Positions 9,334 through 44,300 of a stretch of 64,000 bases of DNA are shown one piece after another. The DNA comes from Eunapius fragilis (Eukaryota > Porifera > Demospongiae > Spongillida > Spongillidae), in contig OY811976.1 of the NCBI GenBank assembly GCA_963681505.1, positions 1,283,812 through 1,347,811 on the forward strand. The letters run 5' to 3'. The notes under the pieces were generated by a model that was not told the origin of the DNA, did no database searches, and saw nothing but the letters and a program-made list of their open reading frames with translations. How positions within the stretch are numbered: the stretch's first letter is position 1; the number at the start of each line of letters is the position of its first letter. The position numbers and the translations under genes are program-made.

Positions 9334-12300
9334 ATGTTCTTCGGTCTTCTATCTGTCATAGTGCTACTATCTGCAGGTAGGGCTATTTACCGGCATGCAT
9401 ATATGGTTTGACATGTATATATGTACGCTTTCATCCCTCCGGCTTGCGTGTTTCATCATGCGTTTGGCGGCAGCTGCAGGGCGCGTAAGTTGCATGGGTC
9501 CGCCCAAACCAGGACCACCACCTCCACCCCCGGCACCTCCACCCCCTTCACCTCCACCTCCAGCTCAGTCTGCCGTGAGCAATCTTAAGACGTCAACGGG
9601 CTCACCTTGGAGCGCCATTTCGGTCATCCCCCTGCTGTCGCCCTCATCATGGCGCTCCACAGTCGCGTCTCGTCCCTCCTCGTCCCCACCAACCGCGCCG
9701 ACTACAAGCCTCGCTGTAACATCCACATTAGGGTCATCACCACCAGATCTTACATCGTACAGCCCTCAATCAACATTGGGAGACCTACAAACCCTAACGC
9801 CGCCAGGATCTGACCTCGTCAGTACCTCGCTGGAACTTTCAGGTCGCTATGCAACGACACCTGCGATGATTTTCCCGACGTCTACTGATGCTGCAGCCAT
9901 TAATTTAATGCCGCGTACCAGAGACCTTGCAGAAGACCTGCATACGGCCATCACGAGCGCAGAGTCAGCATCACCCACTGTGTACCTAGTGCCGCCGGCA
10001 GATCATGACAGAGGGATCACGTGGATACTTGTTGGGAGCATAGCGGGACTACTGGTAACGCTTGCTGTCCTTACCGCTGTCGTGGTAGCGGTGTCTTTGG
10101 TCTGCCGCCACAGAGAGAAAGTATCATTGCTGAAGAAGGTGGTTGTCAATAATCCAAATTATTATGTACCAGGTATGCCAAGTGTGTGTATGTTATGCCG
10201 GGGGATGGGTAATTCATGACCAGGCCTTGAACTCTCCCCAGTATATGCATGCATGGCCGCGGCATGCATAGGATTGGAGGTTGAAAATATTATTCACATT
10301 TTCTTTATATTGTATTTCGTTCAATGATCATGGCTGTACTGCACAGATGTCTCTCCAGCCTCGGGCAAAGGTTGCTGTGATGAATACGACAGTGTCGATG
10401 ACCTGGGTTTCACGCAAGCGGATACATCCTCGTACCCTGTCAACGACTACGATACTACTAGCCCAGTTGAACAGAAGGAATTTTTGGCAAAGAGACCAGA
10501 GTATTACGAAATTACCACATCTCAAACGGAGACGTATGAAAATTGTAGTGAACTTGGAGCCCATAAAGGAACATCTCTTAAGGTAATTCCCCTCCCGCTC
10601 CTCTCCTCTCCCCTCCTCTCTCCTCTCCTCCCTCTCCTCCCCTCTCCTCTCTCTCACGCCATGACATTGACCTAACGTGACACTGATACCATAGGAAAGC
10701 ACTCCTGAAAGCTCAGTGTTTGGAATGAAGCACACCGACCCAGCAGCCGCTAGCATTGTGGCAAGTGGCTCACTAATCTTTTTCCACTTGCTTTAAAGCC
10801 ACTCTTCTTTCAATGCATTAGTCGCGTGATTCAAATGACAGACTATTTTTTGAAGAGAGTGACGTGTACTGGAGACCAGCAGGCCAGTTTGAAGAGCTAT
10901 ACAAACAGCTCTCGAGGATGAAGTATAGGGAGATACCAACATCCAACATCAGGTGACCAAGCATTCATCATATAATTGTTGTGGGTATGTGCATGTGTGG
11001 GTGTACTAATGACCCCTGTGGATGAATGGCTCCAAGTAGCCAAGTTCCCAGACTGTCCATGTATGCACATCACAAACACACCCATTGATGGGAGCGTTCT
11101 TTGTGTTGGGAACAGGATATTGGCACAGATAGGCTCGGGGGAGTTTGGCATGGTCATGAAGGGGGTGTGGAGCTCCCCGGCAGGTGAGAGGGAGGTGGCC
11201 GTGAAGATGCTGCCCCCTGATGCCACAGAGAAGGACCAGATAAGGTTTCTGCAGGAAGCTGCTGTCAACGGGCAGTTCAACTTCCATCCCAACATCGTCC
11301 ATCTGTTTGGAGTGGTGACTGTGGAGAAACCAGTAAATACATGAAGGGAGTGTGTGTATATTGTGACATGAGCAACTTAACGCACACTACCAGCTGATGA
11401 TGGTACTGGAGCTGTTGACCAATGGGGACCTCAGAAACTATCTTATAAAACAAAGGACACTGTAAGCCAGTAAAAATAATAAATTAAAATGATTAACCCT
11501 TTCTATGTTTAACCGTCTGGATGAATTTTGGATGCTAATCTGACACTCTATTTATGATGTCAGCCTTGGTAAGACCACACCTACTGACTGGCCCTACACA
11601 CTGCTTGGGTTCTGCAGACATGTCGCATCAGGCATGCATTACCTCTCCAGGAAAGGCTTTGTGCACAGAGATTTAGCAGCAAGAAACATTTTGCTCTCTG
11701 ACGAGAGAATTTGTAAGGTACATGTAACTGGCTTCTATAATATATTAAGATTTAATAACTCTTCATTACTGAAATTAAACAGATAGCCGACTTTGGAATG
11801 TCCAGGGATTTGGATGACGACACTTATTACATCTCTCAAGGTGGGAAGATCCCTGTGAAGTGGACAGCACCAGAGGTGAGTGGGACATGGCCACACCCAC
11901 ATTGTGTTATCCCCTCCTCCCTGGTGATCGGGGCAACCATATCATCCCCCCCCCTCCCCCCCCCACAGGCCATCCACTTTAAGAAGTACTCCGCCCTCAG
12001 TGATGTCTGGTCTTATGGGGCTTTACTGTATGAGATATGGAGTTTTGGACAGAAACCATTTGAAAGCTACACAAACCTTGAAGTTAGCCACACCCCTTCC
12101 TGTACTGTGGCCCCTCCTCTTTATGCATACATTCCATACCACTGAAGGTGATAAAGATGATTGATGAAGGTGTCCGTCTGGGCCCTCCCCCTGGGTGTCC
12201 CAGGGCACTCTACCTCCTGATGATGCAATGTTGGTAAGTGTTTACAAGTCTTTGGGCCATGAGATCTTGTGTGATGTCATTGGCCCAAGAGATCTTTGTG

Positions 12301-12954
12301 TGATGTCATTGGCTCAAGATATCTGTGTGTGATGTCATTGGCAGGATTGGGGCATGTGTATGTCAACATTGGCAATGGTTTGGTCATTTGCTAATTGCAT
12401 TTGACACTGCATTGAAGTTGACAGACCACAGTGTATGGTATGGAGACCACAATGTATGGTATAGAGACCACAATGTATGGTATAGAGACCACAGTGTATG
12501 GTATACAGACCAGTGTATGGTATAGAGACCACAGTGTATGGTATAGAGACCAGTGTATGGTATAGAGACCACAGTGTATGGTATGGAGACCACAGTGTAT
12601 TGTATGGAGACCACAGTGTATGGTATGGAGGCCAGAGTGTATGGTATGGAGATCACAGTGTATGGTATGGAGACCACAATGTATGGTATAGAGACCACAG
12701 TGTATGGTATAGAGACCACAGTGTATGGTAGGGCGGATCTTATGAATGCACTTGTCCAAAATGGCAGGCATCCAGAGAAGACAAGCAGACCTACATTTGA
12801 GAGCATCGTGCTGACATTGAAGAGTGCATCTCCAGACCTCCTTCACTGGAGCAGTGAGGACCTGGGTGTCCATCCGCAGGCAAACTGCCTTGGTGCAGAC
12901 ATGAGTGTGTCACTGGACCTATATGCTGACCTGCGCTACATGTACAATAAGTAA
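9334..12954 (+). CDS. RTK1: receptor tyrosine kinase with short Pro/Ser/Thr-rich ectodomain
   Basis: Twelve exons: 9334-9376, 9480-10172, 10347-10582, 10695-10760, 10822-10952, 11116-11332, 11394-11461, 11564-11717, 11783-11875, 11969-12082, 12148-12233 and 12768-12954. All phases fit and give 695 aa. The start is set by a signal peptide ([15 protein letters not shown]) encoded by exon 1 plus the first bases of exon 2. Then come a poly-proline stretch and a Ser/Thr-rich ectodomain without recognised folds. One membrane helix follows ([18 protein letters not shown]). The cytoplasmic side has tyrosine motifs ([17 protein letters not shown]). The kinase domain shows the glycine loop GSGEFG, lysine in [19 protein letters not shown], two activation-loop tyrosines (TYY), KWTAPE and the end motif [12 protein letters not shown]. 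It should be an active receptor kinase; the ligand is unknown. Exon 4 appears to end at a GC donor. Paralogue: RTK2 at 29694-39101. Confidence 0.9.
10588..10655. repeat. CT-rich low-complexity tract in RTK1 intron 3
   Basis: Repeats of CTCCTCTCCCCTCCTCTC begin a few bases after the donor at 10583. Confidence 0.8.
12420..12735. repeat. 21-bp minisatellite in RTK1 intron 11
   Basis: About 15 copies of GAGACCACAGTGTATGGTAT. It lies between the exon ending at 12233 and the exon starting at 12768. RTK2 carries a different minisatellite in the same intron. Overlapping ORFs on both strands are artefacts of a stop-free unit. Confidence 0.9.
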
Positions 12955-17400: not shown

Positions 17401-17624
17401 TAGCGGTAGTGTCGTTGGGTGTGGGCAGCGCCCTCTGCTGTTTTGTTGGCATCATTATGTACCATATCCTAAAGTATACAAAGCTCCGAGATCTACTGAA
17501 AATTACTAATTTAATACTGCATAAAAGTCAACCAGAAATTTTGCCAATCAGTACCAATAAAGATGAAGTGTATGAAGAGTTGGAAGACAGTACAAGCGGA
17601 TTTCGCAAGGAATTGATTAATTGA
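14424..17624 (+). CDS. Protein A: secreted-end beta-helix plus multi-pass membrane protein
   Basis: A single uninterrupted reading frame of 1066 aa. An in-frame ATG at 14349 exists, but I prefer the ATG at 14424 because a clean signal peptide follows it (MDMHVVVLLCLLLFHSARG). Residues about 60 to 420 are short repeating segments such as CTFAENGYGVKV and CIFVGNDYGVLS with many N-glycosylation sites. This is typical of right-handed parallel beta-helix folds. A cysteine-rich section follows (CSNAHGGILCGGCQ, ELCRRCSNN). The last 380 residues hold about eight or nine hydrophobic segments, beginning YYLFLLVVFAIMGVVLVALL, then a short charged tail. The architecture suggests a large glycosylated surface receptor or adhesion protein; ligand and signalling are unknown. 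Paralogue: protein B at 22122-25346, nearly identical in its C-terminal 60 percent. Lack of introns is unusual for this window and could reflect retroposition. Confidence 0.88.
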   Translation: MDMHVVVLLCLLLFHSARGFNYCVSPDGNATYDGERCQRLDAYTQNASLYFKSSTSFVFLPGMNVLNFEGFVVVNNAENVSFVGWRDAGHVIQPPSMILCNGRSGFLFSNSFNITFTDLSLVNCSSQTYDSIVGEDVFASVYLFYVESFKMERVSVQNGSGVVQMRGSSSISSSAFLQLHSTALILYNSFQLSINDCMFMYSPTAISTSYIIMNIQGCTFAENGYGVKVNYGIATVEDCIFVGNDYGVLSDNSDVTVSSCTFERNKYAVGLIEGTAEITATDFQQNANAGYYQSCPNVTLSNCTFETSNDSSISAILSTLYFTGNISFANNFAPDYGGGLYLSDSRVYLTAPVNLEFINNTAVLNGGAVYSKNTFSEITYQQCFFDFNDNEGTLDDPNIHIVFTNNQVYEAGSILYGSLYDCTLDRSLIPGYGDTSPILILEAVSRITEIESNITALAADPKRVCLCSNGSYQCPSPQAAPVQIAVYPGEQITLSIVSLDEYNGTTPSIVFARSGSAILTVLRTTNQCSDYTILTTTNQKITLLTQGAFLANQNAFQFSVEMLPCPNGFVLDSITQTCVCSYVLSQHGAVCSITNQTIQKPPNSWVGTVANGTVAIGTFCQPDSCNQVITSVNLNSKVSVDMQCSNAHGGILCGGCQEGLSVTIGSELCRRCSNNYYLFLLVVFAIMGVVLVALLFVLNLTVSVGTINGIIFYANIINSNSNVIFRNGGANGFTDFLSVFISWINLDFGIETCFYDGMDSYSNAWLQFVFPVYIILLMVFIILAGRVSSRISRWCKHNVVPAMATLVLLLYTKILRNVAVIFSFTALKVEGDNSSFYSSRWLYDGNVEYVHGKHGALYAAGVAMTVFYIFPLTAVLLFTPCLQMKSHWKVLVWVNKLKPFLDSYQAPFKDRYRFWTGALLLVRFVLYSFVTVSTNSVANLLAVVMAVLFPLVCILGLGVYKKWSLTILEGFLYSNAVVLAILVYLQSKDVNLIAVVSLGVGSALCCFVGIIMYHILKYTKLRDLLKITNLILHKSQPEILPISTNKDEVYEELEDSTSGFRKELIN

Positions 17625-22121: not shown

Positions 22122-25100
22122 TCAATTAATCAATTCCTTGCGAAATCCGCTTGTACTGTCTTCCAATTCTTCATACACTTCATCTTTATTGGTACTGATT
22201 GGCAAAATTTCTGGTTGACTTTTATGCAGTTTTAAATTAGTAATTTTCAGTAGATCTCGGAGCTTTGTGTACTTTAGGATATGGTACATAATGATGCCAA
22301 CAAAACAGCAGAGGGCGCTGCCCACACCCAACGACACTACCGCTATGAGATTCACATCCTTCGATTGCAAATACACCAGAATGGCAAGAACGACTGCATT
22401 GCTATAGAGGAAGCCTTCAAGAATGGTTAGACTCCACTTTTTGTACACCCCAAGTCCCAGGATGCAAACCAGAGGAAACAGCACGGCCATCACCACTGCC
22501 AAAAGGTTAGCTACTGAATTGGTGCTCACCGTCACAAAGCTGTACAGCACAAAGCGGACCAGAAGGAGGGCCCCAGTCCAAAACCTGTAGCGATCCTTAA
22601 ATGGAGCCTGATAGCTATCCAAAAATGGCTTCAATTTGTTCACCCATACCAACACTTTCCAATGTGACTTCATCTGCAAGCAAGGAGTGAAGAGAAGAAC
22701 AGCCGTGAGAGGGAAGATGTAGAAAATGGTCATCGCCACACCAGCTGCATACAGTGCTCCATGTTTCCCGTGCAAGTACTCAACATTTCCATCATACAGC
22801 CATCGCGAGCTGTAAAATGACGAATTGCCACCTTCTACCTTGAGAGCAGTGAATGAGAATATAACTGCAACGTTCCTCAATATTTTAGTGTACAGCAGAA
22901 GGACCAGTGTGGCCATAGCCGGGACTACGTTATGTTTGCACCACCTTGATATTCTGCTGGAGACCCGTCCAGCTAGAATGATGAATACCATTAGAAGTAT
23001 GATGTAAACGGGGAATACAAACTGAAGCCAAGCATTGCTGTAGCTGTCCATGCCATCGTAGAAACAGGTTTCTATTCCAAAGTCAAGGTTTATCCACGAT
23101 ATGAATACAGATAGAAAATCTGTGAAACCGTTTGCACCGCCATTTCTAAATATGACATTACTATTGCTGTTGATAATGTTGGCATAAAATATGATCCCAT
23201 TGATGGTACCAACAGATACTGTGAGGTTGAGCACAAAGAGCAGGGCCACCAATACCACACCCATTATGGCAAACACCACCAAGAGGAACAGGTAATAGTT
23301 GTTGCTACACCTTCTGCACAATTCGGATCCAATAGTTACGCTGAGTCCCTCCTGACACCCACCACACAGAATGCCTCCGTGGGCATTACTGCACTGCATG
23401 TCCACAGATACCTTGCTACTCAGGTTGACTGAAGTGATGCCCTGGTTGCAGCTGTCGGGTTGGCAAAATGTACCTATGGCAACCGTTCCATTGGCGACTG
23501 TGCCAACCCAACTGTTAGGAGGTTTCTGAATGGTCTGATTTGTGATGGAGCAGACGGCACCATGTTGTGAAAGGACATAGCTACACACACATTTTTGGGT
23601 TATAGGGTCAAGCACAAAGCCGTTTGGACATGGAAGCATCTCCACTGAAAATTGAAAGGCATTTTGATTGGCCAGAAAAGCACCTTGAGTTAGCAAAGTT
23701 ATCTTTTGATTAGTTGTAGTCAAAATGGAGTAGTCAGAACATTGGTTGGTTGTGCGGAGAACAGTTAAAATGGCGGATCCCGAACGAGCAAACACAATGG
23801 AAGGTGTTGCTCCATTGTACTCATCAAGGCTAACAATGGACAGAGTTATCTGCTCTCCTGGATAGACAGCAATCTGAACTGGTGCAGCCTGGGGACTTGG
23901 ACACTGATAGCTTCCATTTGAGCACAGGCACACCCTCTTAGGATCTGCTGCCAGTGCTGTTATGTTGCTTTCAATTTCAGTTATCGTACTGACAGCTGCA
24001 AGGATGAGAATGGGCGACGTGTCACCATAACCTGGTATTAAGCTGCGGTCAAGGGTGCAGTCATACAAACTGCCGTAGAGAATACTTCCTGCTTCATGCG
24101 CTCCATTGTTAGTAAATACTATCTGGATATTTGGATCATCCAAAGTCCCATTGGTGTCATTGAACTGGAAGAAGCATGGTTGGTAGGACAAGGCACTGAA
24201 TGTGTTATCAGCAAAGACCACGCCTCCACTTAGTACGGCGGTGTTGTTTTCAAATGTGATCGTGATTGGTGCTTGTAGGTATATTACAGAACCATGCATG
24301 AAAAAAGCGCCTCCATAGTCGGGAGCAAAGTTGTTTGCAAACAGTATGTTTCCAGTGAAATATAGTTGAGAAAACAATGCAGTGATGCTTGAATAATTGC
24401 TGCTTTCGAATGAGCAGTTTGTGTAGTGAATCTCCGAGTTCTGGTAGTAGCCAGCGTTGGTGTTTCTAGTGAACACTGAATTGGAGACATATGACTTGCT
24501 CAGAAGCAGTAACCCTATTGCATATGCATTGTACATGAACGTGCAGCCATCCGCGGTGATGTACCCGCCCTGTGTTGACAGCACACTGTATGTGTTATCA
24601 ACGAACACAGTGTCCTCGATTACCGCATACTCGGATGAGATCGCCACTCCATAGTTGTTCATTGCCAGCATACAGCCCGTCATCTCAACGTTACCCTCGG
24701 AACCGTTCACTGCTGTGGAGCAATACATGAAGGTGGTGTTGTACACATGGACGTCACAGTTAAACATCTGTATTGCGGAGGGCTGGAGGTTCAGGAATGA
24801 CGAGTTGACGATCGATATCCTGTTGATGATAGTAATGGCCACAATGCCACTGCCATTCTGTATGGTCACGCCATACATGCTGAAACCTTCTATACTTAAG
24901 AGATATATAGAGGCGACCACACCTCCCAGTAAGTCGTCCAAATAGTACGTGGAACAGTTAATCAGGACCAGATTGGTTAGAGTTATGTTATAGCTGTAAG
25001 TGAATGAAAAACCGGATGGTTTGACGCACGTGATCTTGCTGGAAGACTCGGTGAGGGAAAAAAACGTCTCGTTGTGTGCTCGGGGCCTCTCCAGCTGCTG

Positions 25101-25346
25101 GCTCCACCCTGCAAACGTTACATTCGTTACGCTGTTGATTTGGAGAAACATTCCAAGATCGAACACGTGAGTTCCCGGCAAGAACAGGAAGGTAGTGAAT
25201 GATTTGAAGTAAGACGCATTTTGTGCGTAGTGGCTGAGGTTTTGGCAGCGTTCTCCGTTGTACGTTGTGTTGCTGTCGGGTGAGACGCAGTAATTAAAAC
25301 CTTCACAACTGTAAAGCAACAGGCAGATGAGGAGTATCGACCACAT
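22122..25346 (-). CDS. Protein B: paralogue of the beta-helix membrane protein A
   Basis: A single reading frame of 1074 aa. The ORF opens at 25409, but I choose the ATG at 25346 because a signal peptide follows (MWSILLICLLLYSCEG) and FNYCVSPD matches the mature start of protein A. Order of parts: signal peptide, glycosylated beta-helix repeats, cysteine-rich segment (CSNAHGGILCGGCQ), eight or nine membrane segments, charged tail ending SGFRKELIN. From IVFTNN (about residue 420) to the stop I count only about 14 differences from protein A in about 650 residues. Before that point the two are only about half identical, with indels. It is probably a surface receptor or adhesion molecule whose ectodomain diverged while the membrane module was kept identical. 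Confidence 0.88.
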   Translation of the reverse strand: MWSILLICLLLYSCEGFNYCVSPDSNTTYNGERCQNLSHYAQNASYFKSFTTFLFLPGTHVFDLGMFLQINSVTNVTFAGWSQQLERPRAHNETFFSLTESSSKITCVKPSGFSFTYSYNITLTNLVLINCSTYYLDDLLGGVVASIYLLSIEGFSMYGVTIQNGSGIVAITIINRISIVNSSFLNLQPSAIQMFNCDVHVYNTTFMYCSTAVNGSEGNVEMTGCMLAMNNYGVAISSEYAVIEDTVFVDNTYSVLSTQGGYITADGCTFMYNAYAIGLLLLSKSYVSNSVFTRNTNAGYYQNSEIHYTNCSFESSNYSSITALFSQLYFTGNILFANNFAPDYGGAFFMHGSVIYLQAPITITFENNTAVLSGGVVFADNTFSALSYQPCFFQFNDTNGTLDDPNIQIVFTNNGAHEAGSILYGSLYDCTLDRSLIPGYGDTSPILILAAVSTITEIESNITALAADPKRVCLCSNGSYQCPSPQAAPVQIAVYPGEQITLSIVSLDEYNGATPSIVFARSGSAILTVLRTTNQCSDYSILTTTNQKITLLTQGAFLANQNAFQFSVEMLPCPNGFVLDPITQKCVCSYVLSQHGAVCSITNQTIQKPPNSWVGTVANGTVAIGTFCQPDSCNQGITSVNLSSKVSVDMQCSNAHGGILCGGCQEGLSVTIGSELCRRCSNNYYLFLLVVFAIMGVVLVALLFVLNLTVSVGTINGIIFYANIINSNSNVIFRNGGANGFTDFLSVFISWINLDFGIETCFYDGMDSYSNAWLQFVFPVYIILLMVFIILAGRVSSRISRWCKHNVVPAMATLVLLLYTKILRNVAVIFSFTALKVEGGNSSFYSSRWLYDGNVEYLHGKHGALYAAGVAMTIFYIFPLTAVLLFTPCLQMKSHWKVLVWVNKLKPFLDSYQAPFKDRYRFWTGALLLVRFVLYSFVTVSTNSVANLLAVVMAVLFPLVCILGLGVYKKWSLTILEGFLYSNAVVLAILVYLQSKDVNLIAVVSLGVGSALCCFVGIIMYHILKYTKLRDLLKITNLKLHKSQPEILPISTNKDEVYEELEDSTSGFRKELIN

Positions 25347-29693: not shown

Positions 29694-31130
29694 TCATGGT
29701 ACATCCCTTTTACTAGTGTATCTACATTGGAGGTCAGAGTACAGCCCCACCCCCTCATCCAGAGGGGCACCCAGCACAGTGGCCTGTGGGTGTGTCCTAG
29801 CGTCCTCAGCTGACCAATGAAGTAAGGTGAGGAGTGGTAGTAATAAAGCTCGTACAATCACGTCAAAAGATGGACGTGAAGACTTCTCTGGGTGCCTGGA
29901 GGGGGAGGAGTTAGGGAGTGGTTAGGGGAGTGGTTAGGGGGAGTGGTTATGGGAGTGGTTAGGGGAGTGGTTATGGGAGTGGTTAGGGAGTGGTTAGGGG
30001 GAGTGGTTAAGGAGTAGTTAGGGGAGTGGTTAGGGGAGTGGTTAGGGAGTAGTTAGGGGAGTGGTTAAGGAGTAGTTAGGGGAGTGGTTAAGGAGTAGTT
30101 AGGGGAGTGGTTAGGGAGTAGTTAGGGGAGTGGTTAGGGAGTAGTTAGGGGAGTGGTTAGGGAGTAGTTAGGCGAGTGGTTAAGGAGTAGTTAGGGGAGT
30201 GGTTAAGGAGTAGTTAGGGGAGTGGTTAGGGAGTAGTTAGGGGAGTGGTTAAGGAGTAGTTAGGGGAGTGGTTAGGGGAGTGGTTAGGGAGTAGTTAGGG
30301 GAGTGGTTAAGGAGTAGTTAGGGGAGTGGTTAAGGAGTAGTTAGGGGAGTGGTTAAGGAGTAGTTAGGGGAGTGGTTAGGGAGTAGTTAGGGGAGTGGTT
30401 AGGGAGTAGTTAGGCGAGTGGTTAAGGAGTAGTTAGGGGAGTGGTTAAGGAGTAGTTAGGGGAGTGGTTAGGGAGTAGTTAGGGGAGTGGTTAAGGAGTA
30501 GTTAGGGGAGTGGTTAGGGGAGTGGTTAAGGAGTAGTTAGGGGAGTGGTTAAGGAGTAGTTAGGGGAGTGGTTAAGGAGTAGTTAGGGGAGTGGTTAAGG
30601 AGTAGTTAGGGGAGTGGTTAAGGAGTAGTTAGGGGAGTGGTTAGGGAGTAGTTAGGGGAGTGGTTAGGGAGTAGTTAGGGCTCCCACCACATGCCTTACA
30701 TGGTAATCCCACCCTTCCCTATCACATAACCATTGGTGTAGCGTCGCCTGCACGCCAACTTAATAAACAAATGCAAATTGGTGTCCAAAAGTTGCGTGCA
30801 CGAACGCTCAGAATGACCCAGCAGTTGCCACCAACTGCTTATATCTTCATTCCCAGCTGGCAAATCCAGCTGCCCCCCGCCAATAACCCTGCACAACCCC
30901 GCCTTGCCATACATCCCTCTCATTACCATGACTATTTAGGCGGAAGCATATTTCCTGTCTAATTCAATACTTTCAAACGACAGGAAAGTGTATGAGTGGT
31001 TAGGGAGTGGTTAGGGGAGTGGTTAGGGGAGTGGTTAGGGGAGTGGTTAAGGAGTAGTTATGGGGAGGATTATAGTGTAGAGAATAAGGCAGAGAGGGAA
31101 TGCAGGGCAACCAGAGGCAGTCCTTCCCCT

Positions 31131-31167
<37 letters not shown>

Positions 31168-34100
31168 TACACACCCACATACACACATTACACATCCACA
31201 GTGACACACACACATTACACATCCACAGTGACACACACACATTACACACCCACAGTGCACACACATTACACACCCACAGTGACACACACACATTACACAT
31301 CCACAGTGCACACACATTACACACCCACAGTGACACACACACATTACACATCCACAGTGCACACACACTCACACATATGCGCACACGCAGACCTTGGAAT
31401 GAGGATGATGGGGACAGGTGCATGTGAGGAGGAGGGAGAGGAGGGAGAGGAGGGAGGGAGAGAGGGAGAGGAGGGAAAAGAGGGGAACAGTGATCTTACC
31501 AGCAATGAATCATGAGCTGATAAATAGCCCGGGGACATCCCGGGGGAGGAGGGAGGCGTCCACCTTTCTCCAAGAATGCCAATAGCTGCAATAAAATCAT
31601 TAGAGTGGTTGACATAGGTCACATAGGTCACATGGAGGTCACATGCAGGTCACATGCAGGTCACATGGAGGTCACATGGAGGTCACATCAGGTCACATGG
31701 AGGTCATATGCAGGTCACATGAGGTCATGTGCAGTCACATGCAGGTCACATGCCAGTCACATGCAGGTTTCATGCTAGTCTTACAGCATTGCTTGCTTTG
31801 AATTTCTCATATGGCTTCTGTCCCAAGCTCCATATCTCGTACATGACTACCCCATAGGACCAGACGTCACTCATGGAGGAGTAAGTCCTGCTACATATAG
31901 CCTGTGTATATCAAAGGTCAAAGGTCAAAATAGCAACACGATCACTTCCATAACAACCAGACCATCCCCCTAATGCTCCCCTGACAACCAGACCATCCCC
32001 CTAATGCTCCCCTGCCAACCAGACCATCCCCCTAATGCTCCCCTGACAACCAGACCACCCCCCTAATGCTCCCCTGACAACCAGACCATCCCCCTAATGC
32101 TCCCCTGACAACCAGACCACCCCCCTAATGCTCCCCTGACAACCAGACCACCCCCCCCTAATGCTCCCCTGACAACCAGACCATCCCCCTAATGCTCCCC
32201 TGACAACCAGACCACCCCCCTAATGCTCCCCTGACAACCAGACCATCCCCCTAATGCTCCTCTGACAACCAGACCACCCCCCTAATGCTCCCCTGACAAC
32301 CAGACCATCCCCTAATGCTCCCTGACAACCAGACCATCCCCCTAATACTCCCCTGACAACCAGACCATCCCCCTAATGCTCCCCTGACAACCAGACCACC
32401 CCCCTTAATGCTCCCCTGACAACCAGACCACTCCCCTTAATGCTCCCTTGACAATCAGACCACCCCCCTAACGCTCCCCTGACAACCAGATCACCCACCT
32501 CAGGAGCAGTCCATCTAAATGGAATCTTCCCTTTCCTCGTGGTATACTGTTGTTCATCTTCCAAATCCTTAGACATACCAAAGTCCCCAATCTAAACAGA
32601 TACCATACCGTGAAGGACCATGGAGGGACAGTGGAGGACAGTGGAGGACAGTGGAGGACAGTGGAGGACAGTGGAGGACAGTGGAGGGATCATGGAGGGA
32701 TCATGGAGGGACAGTGGAGGGACCATGGAGGGAACATGGAGGAACAGTGGAGGGATCATGGAGGGAACATGGAGGGATAGTGGAGGGATCATGGAGGGAC
32801 AGTGGTGGGACCATGGAGGGATCATGGAGGGACAGTGGAGGGATCATGGAGGGACAGTGGAGGGATCATGGAGGGACAGTGGTGGGACCATGGAGGGATC
32901 ATGGAGGGACAGTGGAGGGATCATGGAGGGACAGTGGAGGGATCATGGAGGGACAGTGGAGGGATCATGGAGGGATCATGGAGGGAACATGGAGGGACCA
33001 TGGAGGGACCATGGAGGAATCATTGAGGGATCATGGAGGGACCATGGAGGGATCATGGAGGGACCATGGAGGGATCATGGAGGGAACATGGAGGGACCAT
33101 AGAGGGACCATGGAGGAATCATGGAGGGATCATGGAGGGACCATGGAGGGATCATGGAGGGCTCGAACAGGGGATCAAAGGGAAACATTCACCTTGCATA
33201 TCATGTCTTCAGACACCAGGATGTTCCTGGCTGCAAGGTCTCTATGTACCAGGCCTCTACCAGAGAGGTACTCCATGCCTGCAGCTATGTGGGCACAGAA
33301 GGAGACAAATGTACCGGCCCGATCATTTAACTGTTCCCTTTGAGACCTGGAGTGTGTGTAGGAGTTAGGAAAGGGAGAGGGAGGCAAGGAGGGGGGGTGG
33401 AGGGTGGAGGGTGGAGGGGTGGGGGTGGAGGGTGGAGGGGTGGGGGTGGAGGGTGGAGGGGTGGAGGGGTGGGGGTGGAGGGTGGAGGGGTGGATGGGGT
33501 GGGGGTGGAGGGGTGGAGTGGTGGGGGTGGAGGGGTGGGCGGGGTGGGCGGGGTGGGCATGGTGGAGGGGTGGAGGGGTGGAGGGAAGAAGAGACGTTGC
33601 TGTCTAATTATACAGCTAAGGTGACTGGCTTAGTCTTACGGGGATTTGAACACAGCCAACAGGTGAAGCAGGTCTCCATTGCTGAGGAATTCTTGTACGA
33701 CCATTAACTGCAGGTGGGAAAAATAGCACCACCATCAGAACATTGATGGGCATGTCACACTGATGATGTAATGGTTTGTATACGTATGTGAAGGCTTGTG
33801 TACTGTGCTAAATTAGTTAGTGATTTGTAGTAATGTGGGACAATGTGGCGGTCCCATTGTGTGTCTGGGCCGTGCCGGCCGGGGGCACAAGCCAGCCACA
33901 GCCGGCCATAGAACAGTCTGGATGTGATGCACATGTAATATGTATGTTCGCTCGTGTGTGATCAGAGCTGTTGTCCTGTTGGCTGGTGACCTTTTGGTAG
34001 CATCTAAACATGTCCACGCGCCTGATCCTGTGGACTCCGCTCTCCCTGGAGTCTAGGATATCACATGATTATATTATTAGGGTGAACAGACCCTAAGACT

Positions 34101-37100
34101 GTCTCCATGGTGATGATAAGAAGAGAAGTTAGCCTAGGGTAGGGGTGTGCTATTTTCATTTATATTTGATTGGCTCCTCTCCTTATGATGTCCAGGACAT
34201 GTATTATAGGGCAGGGGGGGGGGGGGGGGGGGGGGGGGGAGGGGGTATAACTCACAGGGGGTCATAACTCACAGGGGATCACATAACTCACAACTTACAG
34301 GGGGCCATAACTCACAGGGGGTCATAACTTACAAGATTCATAACTTATACGGGGGTCATAACTTACAGGGGTCATAACTCACAAGGGGTCATAATTTACA
34401 GGGGTCATAACCCACAGGGGGTCATAACTTACAGGGGTCCCAATAGTACACACACCATACAGCTGCACCACATTAGGGTGGCCGCTGAACTGGGCAAACA
34501 TGGCCGCCTCTTGCATCAGTTTGACGTGTGCCACAGCTGAGCTGATGGGAGGGACCATCTTCACAGCTACCTCCACCAGTCCCTTTGAACTGTGCCATAT
34601 GCCTCTGCTCACCGTACCAAACTCCCCCGCTCCTAGGTGGGTGGTTATCCTAAGGTGAGGAGGAGGAGGGACAAGGGGGAGGAGGAGGGGGAGGGGGAGG
34701 GAGGAGGGAGGGGAGGAGGGGGAGGAGGAGGGAGGAGGGAGGAGGAGAGTAAGTATTTATCATGCATTGAACTCCCTTCCCCCCCCCTAGCTAACTTTAT
34801 CTCTTCTCTTGGGATTTCATAGCACATACTGGATACAGCTTTCCTCAACCGTTCACAGTTCATGGATGATGTCCAATATGAGTCATTGGAATTCTGAATG
34901 TCGATAGACTAAGTACAAAGGGGATGGGAGGAGGGGAAGAGAGGGGAGGAGATGGGAAGGGAGGAGAGGGAGGATGTGGAGGTGATGTGGAGAGGAAGGG
35001 GAGGAGGATGGGAGATAAAGGACTAATAAATAAACAAATCCACTTCTCCACTTCACCCCTTTGTGCCTCTCAAACCACTTCTCCACTTCACCCCTTTGAG
35101 CCTCTCAAACACTAGCTGAATGTCCTTAGATGGCAAAAGCCAGTCGTGCCCTAATAAGGTATCCACACGTTTGAGAGTAGGGTTTTTCCCATTTGCGTGC
35201 CAGGTTGGCTATGATGTCACAGTATCACGGTAAACTCCTTAAAAGGTCATACTTCAAAGTTATAACATTCTACTGACAACAGCTGCTGACATAAGGGATG
35301 TCCTAACACGTGACACTTTACACATCAAAACAGTCGGATGGATGCAATCACCTCCATAATCCCCTCTCATCCCCTCTCATCCCCTCTCCTTCCCACCCCT
35401 CTCATCCCCTCTCATCCCCTCTCCCTCCCACCCCTCTCATCCCCTCTCCATCTCATCCCCTCTCCCTCCCACCCCTCTCCCTCCCATCCCTCTCATACCC
35501 TCTCCCTCCCACCCCTCTCCCTCTCATACCCTCTCCCTCCCACCCCTCTCCCTCTCATCCCCTCTCCCTCCCACCCCTCTCCCTCTCATCCCCTCTCCCT
35601 CTCCACTCCCTCCCCTTCCCCTTCCCCTGTTGCCTACCTTAATGAACACAGTGTCCTCATCAACACCACTTTCCTGTGATGATTCCATTTCCTCCTGTGT
35701 AATAGACCACCAATCCTTGTAAGGCAAACCTGAGGCTCTTTCCCATCTCTCTCGTCTTTCTCCTCTCACCTCCCCCTCCTTCCTCCCTCCTCCCTCCCTC
35801 CTCCCTCCCCCTCCCTCCCTCCTCCTTCCTCCCTCCTCCCTCCCTCCTCCCTCCCCCTTCCTCCCTCCTCCTTCCCTCCTCCCTCCCTCCCTCCCTCCTC
35901 CCTACTCCTTCCCCTATCACCAGCTAACCTTCTGTGCTACCGTCACTGGCTTTTCATAACCAGCTGCCTCTCTACCAGCTGCCCCTTTACCAGTGGCCTG
36001 GTTGTGGGAGGGTAACATCTCATATGCCTCAGGCTCCACCCCTCCATTGGAGAGGGGGCGTGTTCCCACCAACCTCTTAGGCACTTCATAACTATTTTCC
36101 AAAGCAGTTGTATTTCTGGAGATGTCAAGGCTACCACAGGGAGAAGGTCTCTCATAGGTAAGGTTACCACAGGGAACAGGTCTCTCATAGGTAAGGTTAC
36201 CACAGGGAACAGGTCTCTCATAGGTAAGGTTACCACAGGGAACAGGTCTCTCATATGTAAGGTTACCACAGGGAACAGGTCTCTCATAGGTAAGGCTACC
36301 ACAAGGAACAGGTCTCTCATAGGTAAGGTTACCACAGGGAACAGGTCTCTCATATGTTCCGGAGCTAGTAACTGATGCTGTGACACGGATAGTTGGGAAC
36401 GGTTCCAAGTATCCCTGACATGGCAATGGGGTGGAGCGTCTCTGTGAAATGTGTACTGATTCATAGATTGCTGATTTCCGACCGTTGTCATGGTGACTGC
36501 CTTGTTGTTCATCATAGGCATACACTGTTGAGAATTCTGCAAATGTATAGATAGATGAGATTATGGTGTGGGAGGGAGGGAAGATGTGTGAGGTAGTGAG
36601 GGAAGGGGAGGAGGGGGAAAGGGGGAATGGGAGGTAGGGAAGATGTGTGGGGAGAGAGAGGGAAGGGGAGGAGGGGGAGGGGAGGTAGGGAAGATGTGTG
36701 AGGAGAGAGAGGGAAGGGGAGGAGGGGGAGGGAGGTAGGGAAGATGTGTGAGGAGAGAGAGGGGAAGGAGGGGGAGAGGGGAAAGGGGAGGGGAGTGAAA
36801 GTGAGAGGGAGGGAGGGAAGTGAGAGGGGAAGGAGGGGAGGGAGAGGGAGAAAGGGGAGGGAGTGGAGGAGTGGGCATTTAGATGAAACAAAATAAGATG
36901 TGAATGGACATGATGTGGTTATTAAGTGGTCAAGTGGAGGTTATTAAGTGATCAAGAGGTACATCTGGTGATTTAACCTCATAAGTACATCTGGTCATTT
37001 AACCCCTTAAGCACATCTGGTCATTGAACAATATCAGCACACCTGGACATCTAACCTTTCGTGTGTGCTATCTCAACCACTCAAGGAGTTCTATACCTCT

Positions 37101-39101
37101 ACCATCTTCTGAACCCCTCAAGCTGCCTTAATGGCCACCTCTTGACCATGTTTTGGCCATTTAATAGCTTGGGGTTAAATGACCAGATGTGCTTAAGGGG
37201 TTAAATGACCAGATGTGCTTAAGGGGTTAAATGACCAGATGTGCTTAAGGGGTTAAATGACCAGATGTGCTTAAGGGGTTAAATGACTAGATGTGCTTAA
37301 AATGACCAGATGTGTTCATGAAGAAATGTGCAACAGTAAGTCACCTGGGGGAGATGAAGCCACGCCCACATTAGGGGACTTCCTTCTCTTCCGAATTACA
37401 AGAACAGCAGTGAGTAGTACAGCCATCCCCAGTGCTAGGAGGAGGGTGGCCCCACCAAATGGCCCCGCCCACACCAATATGTTCTTCACGTCTTTGGACT
37501 GTTGCTGTGTGCTTTCTATGGTTGCCATGGGAGATGGGTTTGGGAGGGAAGTAGCAGTATCTGGCAATGCAGAAGGCATTGGTGATGGGGAAGCTATGGA
37601 GGATGTTGTAGGCATAGGTGATGGGGAAGCTATGGAGGATGTTGTAGGCATAGGTGACAGGGAAGCTATGGAGGATGTTGTAGGCATAGGTGATAAGAAT
37701 GATGTCCCAAAAGAAGTTGTTGACAAGGCAGAAGTTAAAACGCTGCTAGTTATCACCATGGTGACAGTTATGGAGGATGCCTGTGATGATGAAAGACTCA
37801 TGAGAGAACTCATTGGTAATGGAGGTATACTTGAGGATGGTGCTACAGCAGTGTTTGTGGCCATCCTTGTGCTAAGCCCAGCAGGTGGTGTAGTGGTGGT
37901 TGAGGGTGTGGTTGAGGGTGTGGTTGACACAGTTGCAAGGGAGGCTACAATGGAAACAAAAAAGGGTGTGGTTGGCGCTAAAGAGGCTGTAGATGGTGCT
38001 AATGAGGGTGTAGATGGTGTTGAAGAGGGTGTGGTTGGTGCTGAAGAGGGTGTAGTTTTTGTTGAAGAGGCTGTCGTTGGTGTTGAAGTGGGTGCAGTTG
38101 GTGCTGAAGAAGGTGTGGTTGGTGTTGAAGAGGGTGTAGTTGGTGTTGAAGAGGGTGCAGTTGGTGCTGAAGAGGGTGTGGTTGGTGCTGAAGAGGGTGT
38201 GGTTGGTGCTGAAGAGGGTGTGGTTGGTGCTGAAGAGGGTGTAGTTGGTGCTGAAGAAGGTGTGGTTGGTGCTGAAGAGGGTGCAGTTGGTGCTGAAGAA
38301 GGTGTAGTTTTTGTTGAAGAGGGTGTGGTTGGTGTTGAAGAGGGTGTAGTTGGTGCTGAAGAAGGTGTAGTTGGTGTTGAAGAGGGTGCAGTTGGTGCTG
38401 AAGAGGGTGTGGTTGGTGCTGAAGAGGGTGTAGTTGGTGCTGAAGAGGGTGTAGTTGGTGCTGAAGAGGGTGTAGTTTTTGTTGAAGAGGCTGTCGTTGG
38501 TGCTGAAGAGGGTGTAGTTGGTGCTGAAGAGGGTGTAGTTTTTATTGAAGAGGTTGTCATTGGTGCTGAAGAGGGTGTAGTTTTTGTTGAAGAGGCTGTC
38601 GTTGGTGTAATTGACTTTTGTAATGAGCTCACCACAGGTATCGAAGACATCAAGACGGAAGAAGTGAGACGTGGTGAGGAAGACGATGTGGCAATCACCA
38701 TGGTGCTAGGCCTTAGGACAGAGCCAGAGGTCGATCGAAGCGTTGTAGAACTAGCACTAGTAGTCTTTCCAGAGCTGGACATTACGGAGGTGGCCGGACG
38801 AGCGGCGGAGGAGGTGCTGCCGGTGGTAGAGGTGGAAATGCGTACGGTAGCGGTGCTGGCTGCTGCAGACGTGGCCTGGGAACTCGATACCGCTGCGGCA
38901 GCAACCGGTGCGCAACGGTCTGCACATGTCGGGGGGAAACACGTACACGATCAAACAAACACATAGGCCTAACGTGTAATTGGTCTCGGCTAGCTGGGGT
39001 ATGTATGTATATGCAGGTACCAAAGTTTATGCACCGTATTATCAAAAGAACTTACGCGCTGTTAATAGCGCCGTCGTTAGTGAAATCGCCAAAATAAGCA
39101 T
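29694..39101 (-). CDS. RTK2: receptor tyrosine kinase with mucin-like ectodomain and YxxP array
   Basis: Twelve exons in transcript order: 39101-39056, 38919-37345, 36536-35929, 35715-35638, 34908-34796, 34649-34433, 33707-33640, 33346-33193, 32591-32499, 31901-31785, 31585-31500 and 29895-29694. Phases all fit and give 1118 aa. Exon 1 encodes a signal peptide ([15 protein letters not shown]). Exon 2 encodes a roughly 450-residue Ser/Thr/Pro ectodomain with TTPSSAP repeats and one membrane helix ([19 protein letters not shown]). Exon 3 encodes ten YxxP motifs, seven of them in [11 protein letters not shown] repeats. The kinase shows [25 protein letters not shown], one activation-loop Tyr (QQYTT), RWTAPE and [12 protein letters not shown]. 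Kinase exons 6, 7, 8, 9 and 11 have exactly the same lengths and phases as in RTK1 (217, 68, 154, 93, 86). The ligand is unknown. Boundaries of exon 4 are the least certain. Confidence 0.9.
29900..30685. repeat. Large minisatellite in RTK2 intron 11
   Basis: About 33 copies of units like GGGGAGTGGTTAAGGAGTAG followed by TTA. It begins only a few bases from the acceptor of the last exon. A small separate block of the same unit lies at 30990-31065. TTAGGG-like words occur, but the array is not telomeric. Confidence 0.95.
31130..31375. repeat. CA tract and ACATTACACATCCACAGTG repeat
   Basis: A CA microsatellite grades into a minisatellite of CACATTACACACCCACAGTG units in RTK2 intron 11. Confidence 0.9.
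31615..31770. repeat. 11-bp repeat in RTK2 intron 10
   Basis: Tandem GGTCACATGCA and GGTCACATGGA units ending about 15 bases before exon 10 in plus coordinates, just after its donor on the gene strand. Confidence 0.85.
31925..32490. repeat. 30-bp minisatellite in RTK2 intron 9
   Basis: About 19 copies of CTCCCCTGACAACCAGACCA followed by TCCCCCTAATG. On the gene strand it starts immediately after the donor of exon 9 (32498). Confidence 0.95.
32625..33175. repeat. Minisatellite in RTK2 intron 8
   Basis: 12-base units GGAGGGATCATG, GGAGGGACCATG and GGAGGGACAGTG fill nearly the whole intron between exons 8 and 9. Long ORFs here are artefacts. Confidence 0.95.
33385..33595. repeat. GGGTGGAGGGTGGA repeat in RTK2 intron 7
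   Basis: G-rich tandem repeat with GGGTGGAGG units. Confidence 0.9.
34207..34440. repeat. Poly-G tract and donor-containing repeat in RTK2 intron 6
   Basis: A run of about 30 G at 34207-34238 is followed by some ten copies of GGGGTCATAACTTACAG. On the gene strand each copy reads CTGTAAGTTATGACCCC. The first copy contains the real exon 6 donor (CCT|GTAAGT at 34432), and several others also carry GTAAGTTATG. Confidence 0.9.
35350..35630. repeat. CT-rich repeat in RTK2 intron 4
   Basis: Units such as CTCATCCCCTCTCCCTCCCA fill the intron up to the exon 4 donor at 35637. Confidence 0.85.
35755..35905. repeat. CT-rich low-complexity tract in RTK2 intron 3
   Basis: CTCCCTCCCTCCTCC repeats occupy most of the short intron between exons 3 and 4. 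Confidence 0.85.
36560..36870. repeat. Purine-rich repeat in RTK2 intron 2
   Basis: GGAAGATGTGTGAGGAGAGA-type units mixed with GGGAGGGGAGGAGGG. On the gene strand this is a pyrimidine-rich stretch ahead of the exon 3 acceptor. Confidence 0.85.
36965..37310. repeat. Inverted repeats and 27-bp tandem copies in RTK2 intron 2
   Basis: ACATCTGGTCATTTAACCCC occurs in the left part. Its reverse complement, GGGGTTAAATGACCAGATGT, is repeated about five times in tandem in the right part (37170-37310). The pattern suggests a foldback element in which one end has been tandemly amplified. Confidence 0.75.
38000..38630 (-). repeat. Coding mucin-type repeat in RTK2 exon 2
   Basis: 21-base tandem units, on the gene strand encoding TTPSSAP and TTPSSTP, about 30 copies. 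They lengthen the O-glycosylation-prone ectodomain. The plus-strand ORF across it (GAEEGVV repeats) is a shadow. Confidence 0.9.
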
Positions 39102-41372: not shown

Positions 41373-44300
41373 ATGGCTACAAGTGAAGCCCCTCTGGTAC
41401 CAGTAAGCTAACCATTGATCATCCCATGAGTTGCCCTATGCACTTCTGCACACCCTTTGACCACCCCTGCCCACCTCTGCCCACTTCTGTCCACCTCTTC
41501 CCACCTCTGCCCACTCCTGTCCACCTCTGCCCACTCCTGTCCACCTTTGCTCGCTCCTATCCACCTCTGCCCACCTCTGCCCACCTCTGCACACCTCTGC
41601 CCACCTCTGCCCACCTCTGTCCACCTCTGTCCACCTCTGCCCACCTCTGCCCACCTCTGCACACTTCTGCCCACTCCTATCCACCTCGCCCACCCCTGCA
41701 GGTGAATATGCCCACCATCAAAGCGGCTGATAACTTCAGTGCAGATGCAGATGCAGCTGCTCTGAGGACTGCCATACATGGAGCAGGCAAATGTAAGGAC
41801 CCACCTCATTCTAATACTGTATTAACCCCTTCACTCTCCCAATACTGTATTAACCCCTTCATTCTCCCAATACTGTATTAACCCCTTCACTCTCCCAATA
41901 CTGTATTAACCCCTTCATTCTCCCAATACTGTATTAACCCCTTCACTATCCCAATACTGTATTAACCCCTTCACTCTCCCAATACTGTATTAACCCCTTC
42001 ACTCTCCCAATACTGTATTTACCCCTTCACTCCTCATTCTTGCCCCACACGTGTACCTTCAGCTCTCCTGCTGCCATCACAGGGTGCCAAGGACCCAGCC
42101 ACCATCATCAGCATCCTCACTGCTAGGAGCAATGCTCAACGTCAGGACATCAAGCAGAAGTACAAGCTGAACTTTGGAAAAGTAAGCTAAACAACTATGA
42201 CACACCCCATCTCTCCACAGGGAATATGAAGGGGGTAGCAGTGGGTGTCATGGACCGGGGGGCAGCATGCGTGGAGGGGGCCAGGGGGCAGCATGTGTGT
42301 GTGTGGGGGGGGGGGGGGGGGGCAGATGTGGGTGTGGGGGACAGCATGTGCGTATCCTTAGAGGTTCCATGTTGCCCGGAAACCCCCCACCCCCTTCGAG
42401 GTTAATTAAACAAAACTAACTGACTTATTAATCATTATGCGTACAGTACAGTACCAGTTTCGTCTCGGCCCCAGGCCAAAATGTCACCAGTGGTAGGTTC
42501 CCATTGGCCTATTTCAAACATGCACAAACAATGATGTAATCTACTGGGGCCTGGGGCAGACACTGCAACTACCTATGAATGTAATTACAACAGGTTGGAA
42601 ACCCCCCCCCCCCCCCCTTTAAAATCCTAGATATGTGCCTACTATGTACTGGTTATACTCTACTAGACCAGCACTGCATTGACTAGCACAGGGACATTAC
42701 CAAAGGTCCAGCTCCTCACGTTACCAAAGGTCCTGCTCCTCACTTTACCAAAGGTCCTGCCCCTCACCTTACCAAAGGTCCTGCCCCTCACCTTACCAAA
42801 GGTCCTGCCCCTCACCTTACCAAAGGTCCTGCCCCTCACCTTACCAAAGGTCCTGCCCCTCACTTTACCAAAGGTCCTGCCCCTCACGTTACCAAAGGTC
42901 CTGCTCCTCACCTTACCAAAGGTCCTACTCCTCACCTTACCAAAGGTCCTACTCCTCACCTTACCAAAGGTCCTACTCCTCACCTTACCAAAGGTCCTAC
43001 TCCTCACCTTACCAAAGGTCCTGCCCCTCACCTTACCAAAGGTCCTGCCCCTCACGTTACCAAAGGTCCTGCTCCTCACCTTACCAAAGGTCCTGCTCCT
43101 CACCTTACCAAAGGTCCTGTCCCTCACCTTACCAAAGGTCCTACTCCTCACCTTACCAAAGGTCCTGTCCCTCACCTTACCAAAGGTCCTGCTCCTCACC
43201 TTACCAAAGGTCCTGCTCCTCACCTTACCAAAGGTCCTGCTCCTCACCTTACCAAAGGTCCTGCTCCTCACCTTACCAAAGGTCCTGCCCCTCACCTTAC
43301 CAAAGGTCCTGCCCCTCACCTTACCAAAGGTCCTGCTCCTCACCTTACCAAAGGTCCTGCTCCTCACCTTACCAAAGGTCCTGCTCCTCACCTTACCAAA
43401 GGTCCTGCTCCTCACCTTACCAAAGGTCCTGCCCCTCACCTTACCAAAGGTCCTGCCCCTCACCTTACCAAAGGTCCTGCCCCTCACCTTACCAAAGGTC
43501 CTGCCCCTCAGCTTCAGAAAAGCAAATGCAGGACTGCCTCATAAATGGACCACCTTATTATAGTGGGTGTGGCTCTGAACTACTGTAGCTTCTGATGTGG
43601 ATCAGGATAACCAATCATATGTGTACCCTCATCCCCAGGATAACCATTCATATGTGTACCCTCATCCCCAGGATAACCATTCATATGTGTACCCTCCTCC
43701 CCAGGATAACCATTCACATGTGTACCCTCCTCCCCAGGATAACCATTCACATGTGTACCCTCCTCCCCAGGAGAACCATTCACATGTGTACCCTCCTCCC
43801 CAGGATAACCATTCACATGTGTACCCTCCTCCCCAGGATAACCATTCACATGTGTACCCTCCTCCCCAGGATAACCATTCACATGTGTACCCTCCTCCCC
43901 AGGATAACCATTCATATGTGTACCCTTCTCCCCAGGACCTCTCCCCAGACTTGGAGGCGGAGCTTAGAGGCAAGCTCAAGACAACCGTGGTAGCCATGAT
44001 GGATGTGAGGGCACTGACCGAGGCCAAGAGCCTTCACCGTGCAAAGAAGGGTGTGGGGGTAGATGAGAAGGCATTCATTGAGATCATCTGCACCAGGTCC
44101 AATCAGGTGTGTGTATGTGTGTGTGCATGTGTGTGTGTGTGTATGTGTGTACGTGTGTGTGTGCATGTGTGTATGTGTGTGTGTGTGTGGTTGGGGCACG
44201 TGTGAGTGTGGTTGGGGCACGTGTGGGTGTGGTTGGGGCACGTGGGTGTGGTTGGGGCACGTGGGTGTGGTTGGGGCATGTGGGTGTGTGCATATATTCC

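Follow-up and report, generated by a model that had tools for sequence, protein, structure and literature searches.

Crk and Cas are old, and the locus described here bears on how receptor kinases reached Crk before the adaptors of today. We analyzed a stretch of 64,000 nucleotides of Eunapius fragilis DNA (hereafter the window; C6:1283812-1347811 of a 219 Mb genome in 24 contigs). The proteins of the window had their closest named relatives in sponges, namely in Ephydatia, Amphimedon, Halichondria, Dysidea and Geodia. One of its genes, RTK2, codes for a receptor tyrosine kinase with a tandem array of YxxP motifs between the membrane helix and the kinase domain. An earlier note on this DNA had described a Cas-like YxxP array built into a receptor tyrosine kinase; this description stood up to the analysis, and the kinase is predicted from its motifs to be active.

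Gene model and the YxxP array of RTK2

The spliced model of RTK2 has one open frame over 12 exons, with GT-AG borders throughout and compatible phases. The product has 1106 amino acids, or 1111 amino acids with the exon 5 acceptor favored by the ortholog, and consists of a mucin-like ectodomain, one membrane helix, the YxxP array and a tyrosine kinase, in this order. The features are as follows (P0133 is the Ephydatia muelleri ortholog described in the next section).

RTK2 gene, 29694..39101, minus strand: 12 exons, spliced model with one open frame
Exon 1, 39056..39101, minus strand: predicted start codon and signal-peptide-like hydrophobic stretch, donor GTAAGTTC, as read from the sequence
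Exon 2, 37345..38919, minus strand: ectodomain rich in serine, threonine and proline, then the membrane helix and an RKRRK stop-transfer signal
Exon 3, 35929..36536, minus strand: juxtamembrane segment, predicted disordered, with ten YxxP motifs, YESV and YEML
YERP array, 36127..36357, minus strand: seven 33-base units of 11 residues each
Exon 4, 35638..35694, minus strand: phase 0 to 0, acceptor TCTATTACACAG, matching EDLDSSQGSSDEDTAFIR in P0133
Exon 5, 34796..34908, minus strand: juxta-kinase segment ending in YEIPREEIK, alternative start 34893
Exons 6-12, 29694..34649, minus strand: tyrosine kinase domain and C-terminal tail (singly 34649-34433, 33707-33640, 33346-33193, 32591-32499, 31901-31785, 31585-31500 and 29895-29694)

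The ectodomain in exon 2 is largely composed of in-frame 21-base and 36-base repeats, and Pfam found no domain in it. Exon 3 has the acceptor ATTTGCAG and the donor GTTAGCTG, and its frame fits the membrane exon as well as the kinase exons; splice sites, frame and phases thus confirm the position between membrane helix and kinase that had been assigned to it earlier. For exon 5, an acceptor at 34893 was first assumed and then dropped for 34908 after the ortholog alignment. The exon probably starts at 34908, since P0133 has SIDLNNSNDSYW there.

Exon 3 encodes ten YxxP motifs, which are YLEP, seven YERP in 33-base units, YEVP and YEKP, along with the tyrosine motifs YESV and YEML; this is the same set as had been read from the sequence before. 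The ten motifs exceed the six YxxP set as the lower limit for a Cas-family substrate domain. An eleventh motif, YEIP, is located in exon 5 beside the kinase and brings the whole juxtamembrane segment to 11. Tandem Repeats Finder (TRF) reported 6.9 copies of the 33-base unit with a 95% match. Among the seven units four codon columns are variable, T (synonymous), V/S, P (synonymous) and N/S, and YERP is unchanged even at the codon level. Since the DNA units are nearly identical, the seven copies are recent. With the array counted as a single unit, proline was still at position +3 of 5 out of 10 tyrosines in the juxtamembrane segment of RTK2, compared to a proline content of 7.1% (p = 3.5e-4).

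We observed 132 tandem-repeat rows in the TRF output for the window. In a genome so rich in minisatellites a tandem repeat is unsurprising per se, and chance occurrence of YxxP in its repeats is non-trivial; therefore, the related proteins are the decisive evidence for the array. As judged from sequence comparison with these proteins, the array of RTK2 is real, coding and conserved.

The kinase domain of RTK2 matched PF07714 with an E-value of 3.7e-83, and only kinase families were found by Pfam in this protein. The G-loop, WTAPE and the other catalytic motifs looked for are all present, and the kinase is predicted from them to be intact. A hydrophobic segment before RKRRK, followed by a kinase domain with catalytic motifs, gives RTK2 the layout of a receptor tyrosine kinase. 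By sequence, the nearest solved structures to the kinase are Eph kinases, save one EGFR double-kinase construct, which owes its first rank to a score summed over two domains.

Related proteins with the array

A tree was built from the kinase domains of 44 rows (46 were chosen, and two without a G-loop match were skipped). It places P0133, the Ephydatia muelleri protein EMCRGX_G017527, as the sister of RTK2 at 100/100. Two further Ephydatia proteins form a group (99/94) with RTK1, the neighboring paralog of RTK2 in the window, and the RTK1 and RTK2 groups are joined at 95/82. Therefore, the RTK1/RTK2 split is older than the split from Ephydatia. RTK2 belongs to a sponge clade of 37 rows (100/98), apart from the two insect Ephs included in the tree. 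Another relative, P0137, is an ENA protein absent from the tree; it was assigned to the RTK2 group by its identity to P0133, which is 71% in a comparison of 301 residues. Both P0133 and P0137 begin at the membrane helix, and the comparison with RTK2 covers the helix onward, with the ectodomain outside it.

RTK1, 9334..12954, plus strand: neighboring paralog without the array, 694 amino acids, 12 exons, spliced model

The kinases of RTK1 and RTK2 are 50% identical. A single YxxP had been attributed to RTK1 by the earlier note; we found two in its juxtamembrane segment, YYVP and YWRP. The same note had the array expand after the duplication. This agrees with its absence from RTK1 and its location on the RTK2 side, but the array is not private to this gene and predates the split from Ephydatia.

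P0133 and P0137 carry a YERP array of the same 11-residue period in the same place as in RTK2, with three units each (TYERPVASNCL/EYERPVASNCY/EYERPIPS in P0133 and TYERPIPSKYL/TYERPVASTCC/EYERPVPSKD in P0137). The copy number is thus variable, with seven units in RTK2 and three in each of the relatives, and slippage of the minisatellite is the probable cause of such changes. All 13 units of the three proteins have the same YERP. Outside this core, the identity over the seven remaining unit positions is 26% for RTK2 and P0133, 32% for RTK2 and P0137 and 40% for P0133 and P0137, compared to 100% throughout for YERP. Within a single array, these positions are 38% identical in P0133 and 33% in P0137, again with 100% for YERP. 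Since the units of P0133 and P0137 have diverged from each other and yet are all YERP, at least three sites are under constraint.

The alignments indicate that selection keeps the YxxP core, while the linker, including its cysteine, drifts. The cysteines had earlier been pointed out as a feature of the repeat; they are absent from two of the three units of P0137 and from one of the three units of P0133 and, being unconserved, are probably incidental. By the same comparison, the array is conserved coding sequence that predates the species split from Ephydatia. At another position of the segment, YDEQ of RTK2 corresponds to YNDP and YDDP in P0133 and P0137.

P0137 was predicted from a contig of 3,015 bases and runs unbroken from the membrane helix through the array to the kinase end. 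In the RTK2 gene the same stretch is divided, with ten exons following the membrane exon. P0137 is therefore probably transcript-derived, and its transcript probably includes the array exon joined to the kinase.

A structural model of P0137, made with 31 relatives, has a confident membrane helix at residues 2-24, and its juxtamembrane segment (29-215) has predicted local distance difference test (pLDDT) values almost entirely below 50, as does the array region (50-182). Most blocks of the kinase have pLDDT of 84-98, with a stretch at 395-407 below 50, and a fold search with this model gave Eph kinases as the closest solved structures. Exon 3 of RTK2 modeled alone with single-sequence AlphaFold2 had a mean pLDDT of 36.9, which is weak evidence because no alignment was used. 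The juxtamembrane segment is predicted to be disordered; the low confidence fits with disorder and falls short of proof.

YxxP enrichment across sponge receptor kinases

The segment between membrane helix and kinase was also analyzed in other receptor kinases. The count was made in sponge receptor kinases only, and the bias is reported for these, with no claim that it is sponge-specific. Sponge labels were read from source names, hits without a name were left out, and identifiers with the prefix Em were taken by us to be of Ephydatia. Set 1 started from 67 sponge-labeled proteins and had 44 segments after removal of 11 proteins with no clear G-loop or membrane helix and of 12 redundant ones. 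Set 2 came from a second search with 37 sponge-labeled proteins, of which 21 were left after the same filters and filtering against set 1.

Proline was found at position +3 of 164 out of 689 tyrosines in the 65 segments, which is 3.7-fold above background. The excess was present in set 1 (117 of 482 tyrosines compared to a background of 6.6%, p = 5.6e-35) and in set 2 (47 of 207, six of the 47 from P0133 itself, p = 3.2e-15), with the p-values overstating the case because paralogs are not fully independent. The argument is carried by the agreement of the two sets and by the controls within the same proteins. No excess of proline at +3 was seen in the ectodomains (33 of 590 in set 1, 7 of 145 in set 2) or in the kinase domains (32 of 503 and 11 of 224, respectively). 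The other offsets from tyrosine that were tested were near the proline background, save milder peaks in set 1 at -8 (61 of 462) and at -2 (53 of 473; in set 2, 15 of 203). With the last 45 residues dropped, where a conserved YW[RE]P-like site is situated by the kinase, 79 of 363 tyrosines in set 1 and 30 of 152 in set 2 still had the +3 proline.

The number of YxxP per segment varied from 0 to 6. Two segments had six, one of them being P0133, and YERP occurred among the 65 segments in P0133 only. The Corticium candelabrum protein P0181, which is outside the tree, has three YCEP in diverged, longer juxtamembrane repeats, apparently an independent triplication, and P0001 of Ephydatia muelleri has two juxtamembrane YGNP, apparently a separate duplication. 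With respect to the neighboring residues of the 164 motifs, glutamate was the commonest at +1 (54, compared to 22 for aspartate) and isoleucine at -1 (34, followed by proline with 23 and valine with 20).

Enrichment of YxxP in the juxtamembrane segment is thus a general trait of the sponge receptor kinases that were counted, and RTK2 stands at the extreme of this trait rather than apart from it. The search for such repeats beyond this gene, which the earlier note had called for in sponge receptor kinases, yielded the arrays of P0133 and P0137, the duplications in P0181 and P0001 and the enrichment in the 65 segments. A bias shared by the family turns a single odd gene into a testable claim on sponge receptor signaling. 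A wider proposal, to which we would give slightly less than an even chance, is that sponge receptor kinases as a class carry an adaptor-docking scaffold in cis, with selection favoring new pYxxP sites, which would have arisen more than once through tandem duplication (RTK2, P0181, P0001), and with the valency of RTK2 set by a coding minisatellite. If true, an early-branching animal lineage would have a counterpart of the Cas substrate domain on its receptors.

Searches for further arrays in the genome

Among the matches listed (of 162) in a genome search for a second YERP array, the only strong one was at the window locus (E-value 2e-137); the next-best of those listed had an E-value of 3.3e-9 and 36% identity. 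Five weaker loci (L010, L012, L013, L015 and L016) were translated, and four of them had YxxP in tandem repeats, with two or three frames per repeat, of doubtful coding status.

The locus L082 (G000:C8:3493400-3498400) was considered as a second array and rejected. It has a 15-base repeat in about 19 copies, and one of its frames contains 15 YxxP, mostly YRAP. The frame that continues as an ectodomain rich in serine and threonine (TSVQS), beside a membrane exon, is another one, and it is likely to be the translated frame. This locus is a caution against taking repeat frames at face value. In five upstream stretches of other receptor-kinase loci we found no translated YxxP array, the juxtamembrane exons being incompletely resolved there and none being recognized in L080 and L081.

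We also observed a dense cluster of RTK2-related receptor-kinase exons, with more than a dozen G-loop exons, at G000 C23:3.84-4.26 Mb, with an integrase-like open frame in L078.

Comparison with known YxxP proteins

Cas (p130Cas/BCAR1) resembles RTK2 in having a chain of many YxxP that dock Crk-type SH2 domains once phosphorylated; 15 are given for human BCAR1 (PMC5043372). Unlike RTK2, which carries its own kinase, Cas is cytosolic, has SH3, serine-rich and CAS_C domains and is phosphorylated in trans. None of these three domains was found by Pfam in RTK2, and the host genome has a separate Cas with YDxP motifs.

Choanoflagellates likewise have membrane proteins with up to ten cytosolic YxxP, among them S. 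rosetta PTSG_05573, and pYDVP peptides of one such protein bind the M. brevicollis crka1 SH2 domain (PMC5043372). In contrast to RTK2, a kinase domain is not described for them in the relevant passages of that article, and three of the five have SH2-like domains instead. DCBLD1 and DCBLD2 are transmembrane scaffolding receptors, whose intracellular YxxP, seven or eight in number, bind the CRKL SH2 domain after phosphorylation by Fyn or Abl; unlike RTK2, they are presented as receptors without a kinase and with a CUB/LCCL/discoidin-type ectodomain (PMC6029619).

On the other hand, Eph and FGFR1 are receptor kinases, as is RTK2, and their juxtamembrane segments contain one or two YxxP. Most insect Ephs compared have YVDP and YEDP, and FGFR1 has YELP at Y463. 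EphA3 is reported to recruit Crk (PMC9953285); for FGFR1, Crk recruitment was proposed, yet Y463 is dispensable for Crk signaling in mice (PMC5818251). These receptors differ from RTK2 in having one to three fixed sites and no tandem array, and the Eph ligand-binding (ephrin-binding), FN3 and SAM domains were not found by Pfam in RTK2. The receptor-kinase expansion of Ephydatia, Amphimedon, Halichondria, Dysidea and Geodia shares with RTK2 the kinase clade and YxxP-rich juxtamembrane segments, but with at most six YxxP in the 65 segments counted.

As far as sequence goes, the known systems have either YxxP arrays without a kinase (Cas, DCBLD1/2, the choanoflagellate proteins) or a few YxxP with a kinase (Eph, FGFR1), and RTK2 appears to join both. 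A tandem YxxP array and a kinase in one chain were not evident in the open literature searched on YxxP with receptor kinases and Crk, with sponges or with juxtamembrane segments, nor in that on sponge or Ephydatia receptor kinases, subscription journals and preprints being outside this scope. The main text of a holozoan kinome paper (PMC8662651) does not contain the term 'YxxP'.

Proposed docking model and alternatives

We think it rather probable that the juxtamembrane segment of this sponge receptor kinase, predicted to be disordered, serves as a dock for several phosphotyrosine-binding proteins at once; RTK2 would then probably provide an adaptor scaffold for itself. Comparative evidence lends good support to the docking reading. 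The gene structure, the array, the array-bearing relatives, YERP conservation, the family-wide enrichment and the presence of Crk and Cas exons were observed, and phosphorylation, SH2 binding, the identity of the adaptor and the downstream effect are inferred. Upon clustering or engagement of the mucin-like ectodomain, the kinase, or recruited Src/Abl-type kinases, would phosphorylate the YxxP tyrosines. SH2 proteins selecting proline at +3 would bind side by side along one chain, the likeliest partner being Crk, with Abl, Nck and RasGAP as alternatives. Through the SH3 partners of Crk, with recruitment of guanine nucleotide exchange factors, this would then promote Rac/Rap-type cytoskeletal and adhesion signaling, the job done by p130Cas in trans. 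The number of sites would be set by the in-frame 33-base minisatellite, so that valency can change without altering the site. As a speculation, the mucin-like ectodomain points to activation by clustering or adhesion and not to a classical growth-factor fold. A kinase fused to a Cas-like docking array, with natural relatives that have three and seven sites, offers a series for testing valency against signaling.

Candidate partners are encoded in the same genome, as identified by their sequences. Crk is represented by two SH2 exons (SENSKVSHYII; FYKKHFLDTTTL) followed by SH3n and SH3c, on one strand at C8:9712418-9723422, and these exons probably form one gene. The host Cas on C14 has a CAS_C match (E-value 2.6e-36), the C-terminal 19 residues of an SH3 domain and a serine-rich match that was just below the Pfam cut-off and just above it in the genome search. 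Its YxxP motifs are YDVP, YDLP, YDQP, YDRP, YDLP, YDIP and YGRP, six out of seven being YDxP. Among SH2 domains labeled by eye, one is Abl-like (L020) and four are Src-like (L017-L019 and L021).

Several observations weigh against the docking reading or against Crk as the ligand, in addition to the incomplete independence of paralogs mentioned above. YLEP has no counterpart in P0133 or P0137, and YEVP, conserved as YEVP in P0133, is lost in P0137 (YEVV). Position -1 of the exon 3 motifs holds T, G or S and not the isoleucine commonest at sponge YxxP; Src and Abl prefer isoleucine at -1. Position +1 is glutamate in nine and leucine in one of the ten motifs, compared to aspartate in six of the seven motifs of the host Cas. 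The preference of the human CRK SH2 domain is given as D-x-pY-D-[V/L]-P-P, with P or L named as a necessity at +3 (PMC3514216); all ten motifs have the +3 proline, and none has the preferred aspartate at +1. For pYELP at Y463 of FGFR1, the Crk dissociation constant is 44 uM in a table and 380 nM in the text of that article, values that are mutually inconsistent (PMC3514216), and the Y463F change in Fgfr1 leaves Crk signaling in mice unimpaired (PMC5818251). Aspartate at +1 appears to be a preference and not a must, since Crk binding to pYAVP and pYSDP is also tabulated (PMC3514216). Multivalency was argued to offset weak single sites in the choanoflagellate proteins (PMC5043372) and, by analogy, may compensate for them in RTK2. 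Judged by its motifs, Crk as the ligand of RTK2 is a plausible hypothesis with an imperfect fit.

The same residues bear on an alternative that we regard as unlikely, namely that the dock is real and its main partner is not Crk, with pYExP recruiting SH2 domains of the Abl, Nck or RasGAP type, or several at once. It would account for glutamate at +1, both in nine of the ten exon 3 motifs and as the commonest residue in sponge YxxP, against the aspartate of the host Cas. The ABL1 specificity is listed as pY-[D/E/S]-[D/E]-[P/N/D/E] (PMC3514216), and the Abl SH2 domain also binds phosphorylated YxxP of DCBLD2 (PMC6029619). However, arginine at +2 of YERP misfits the acidic +2 given for ABL1, and the host Cas itself has YDRP, so that a presumed Crk site can accommodate this arginine. 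The RTK2 motifs also do not have the aspartate at +5 that is typical of RasGAP ligands.

Selective neutrality of the repeat number is rather unlikely; in that case, the segment would be a disordered spacer in which a minisatellite amplified one ancestral YERP, and the extra copies would add no function. Such an origin fits the 132 tandem-repeat rows of the window, the YxxP found elsewhere in this genome in repeats of doubtful or alternative frame, the recent age of the near-identical RTK2 units and the poor conservation of the flanking YLEP and, in P0137, of YEVP. Nevertheless, all units of P0133 and P0137 keep YERP in spite of their divergence (38% and 33% at the other seven positions), which puts at least three sites under constraint, and the C-terminal YxxP is retained as YEKP in RTK2, YENP in P0133 and YEKP in P0137.

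A regulatory rather than docking role of the array, as a substrate-mimic or autoinhibitory segment or as an endocytic or turnover signal, seems improbable. YEML is compatible with a Yxx-hydrophobic sorting motif, and Eph kinases, the closest solved structures, are autoinhibited by juxtamembrane tyrosines (PMC9953285). Yet the array is predicted to be disordered and is distant from the kinase in sequence, and its conserved element is a tyrosine with proline at +3, an SH2 feature. YEIP, next to the kinase, is an element of its own, with its tyrosine replaced by histidine in P0133 and by cysteine in P0137.

That exon 3 is intronic or read in a wrong frame is very improbable: L082, with a 15-YxxP frame beside an apparently translated serine- and threonine-rich one, gives an example of such an error, but good splice sites, phases that fit on both sides and the same protein context in P0133 and in P0137, the latter from a short and probably transcript-derived contig, largely refute another frame, which the earlier note had named as a way for its reading to fail.

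Other features of the window

Two inverted genes, at 14466-17624 on the plus strand and at 22125-25346 on the minus strand, have one long open frame each and encode proteins that are 79% identical overall. The C-terminal regions of about 650 residues are almost identical, and the N-terminal parts have diverged; as far as the alignment tells, this looks like gene conversion between inverted copies. With the flanking RTK1 and RTK2, these genes form an inverted pair of gene pairs.

The highest-scoring of the tandem-repeat rows in the window is a 24-base minisatellite of about 110 copies at 48283-50911. An exon near 61113 (plus strand) resembles a kinase of the CaMKII type. At 43603-43937 (plus strand), an annexin gene has about ten units of the 11-residue sequence QDNHSHVYPPP, an in-frame 33-base repeat, N-terminal to the annexin domain.

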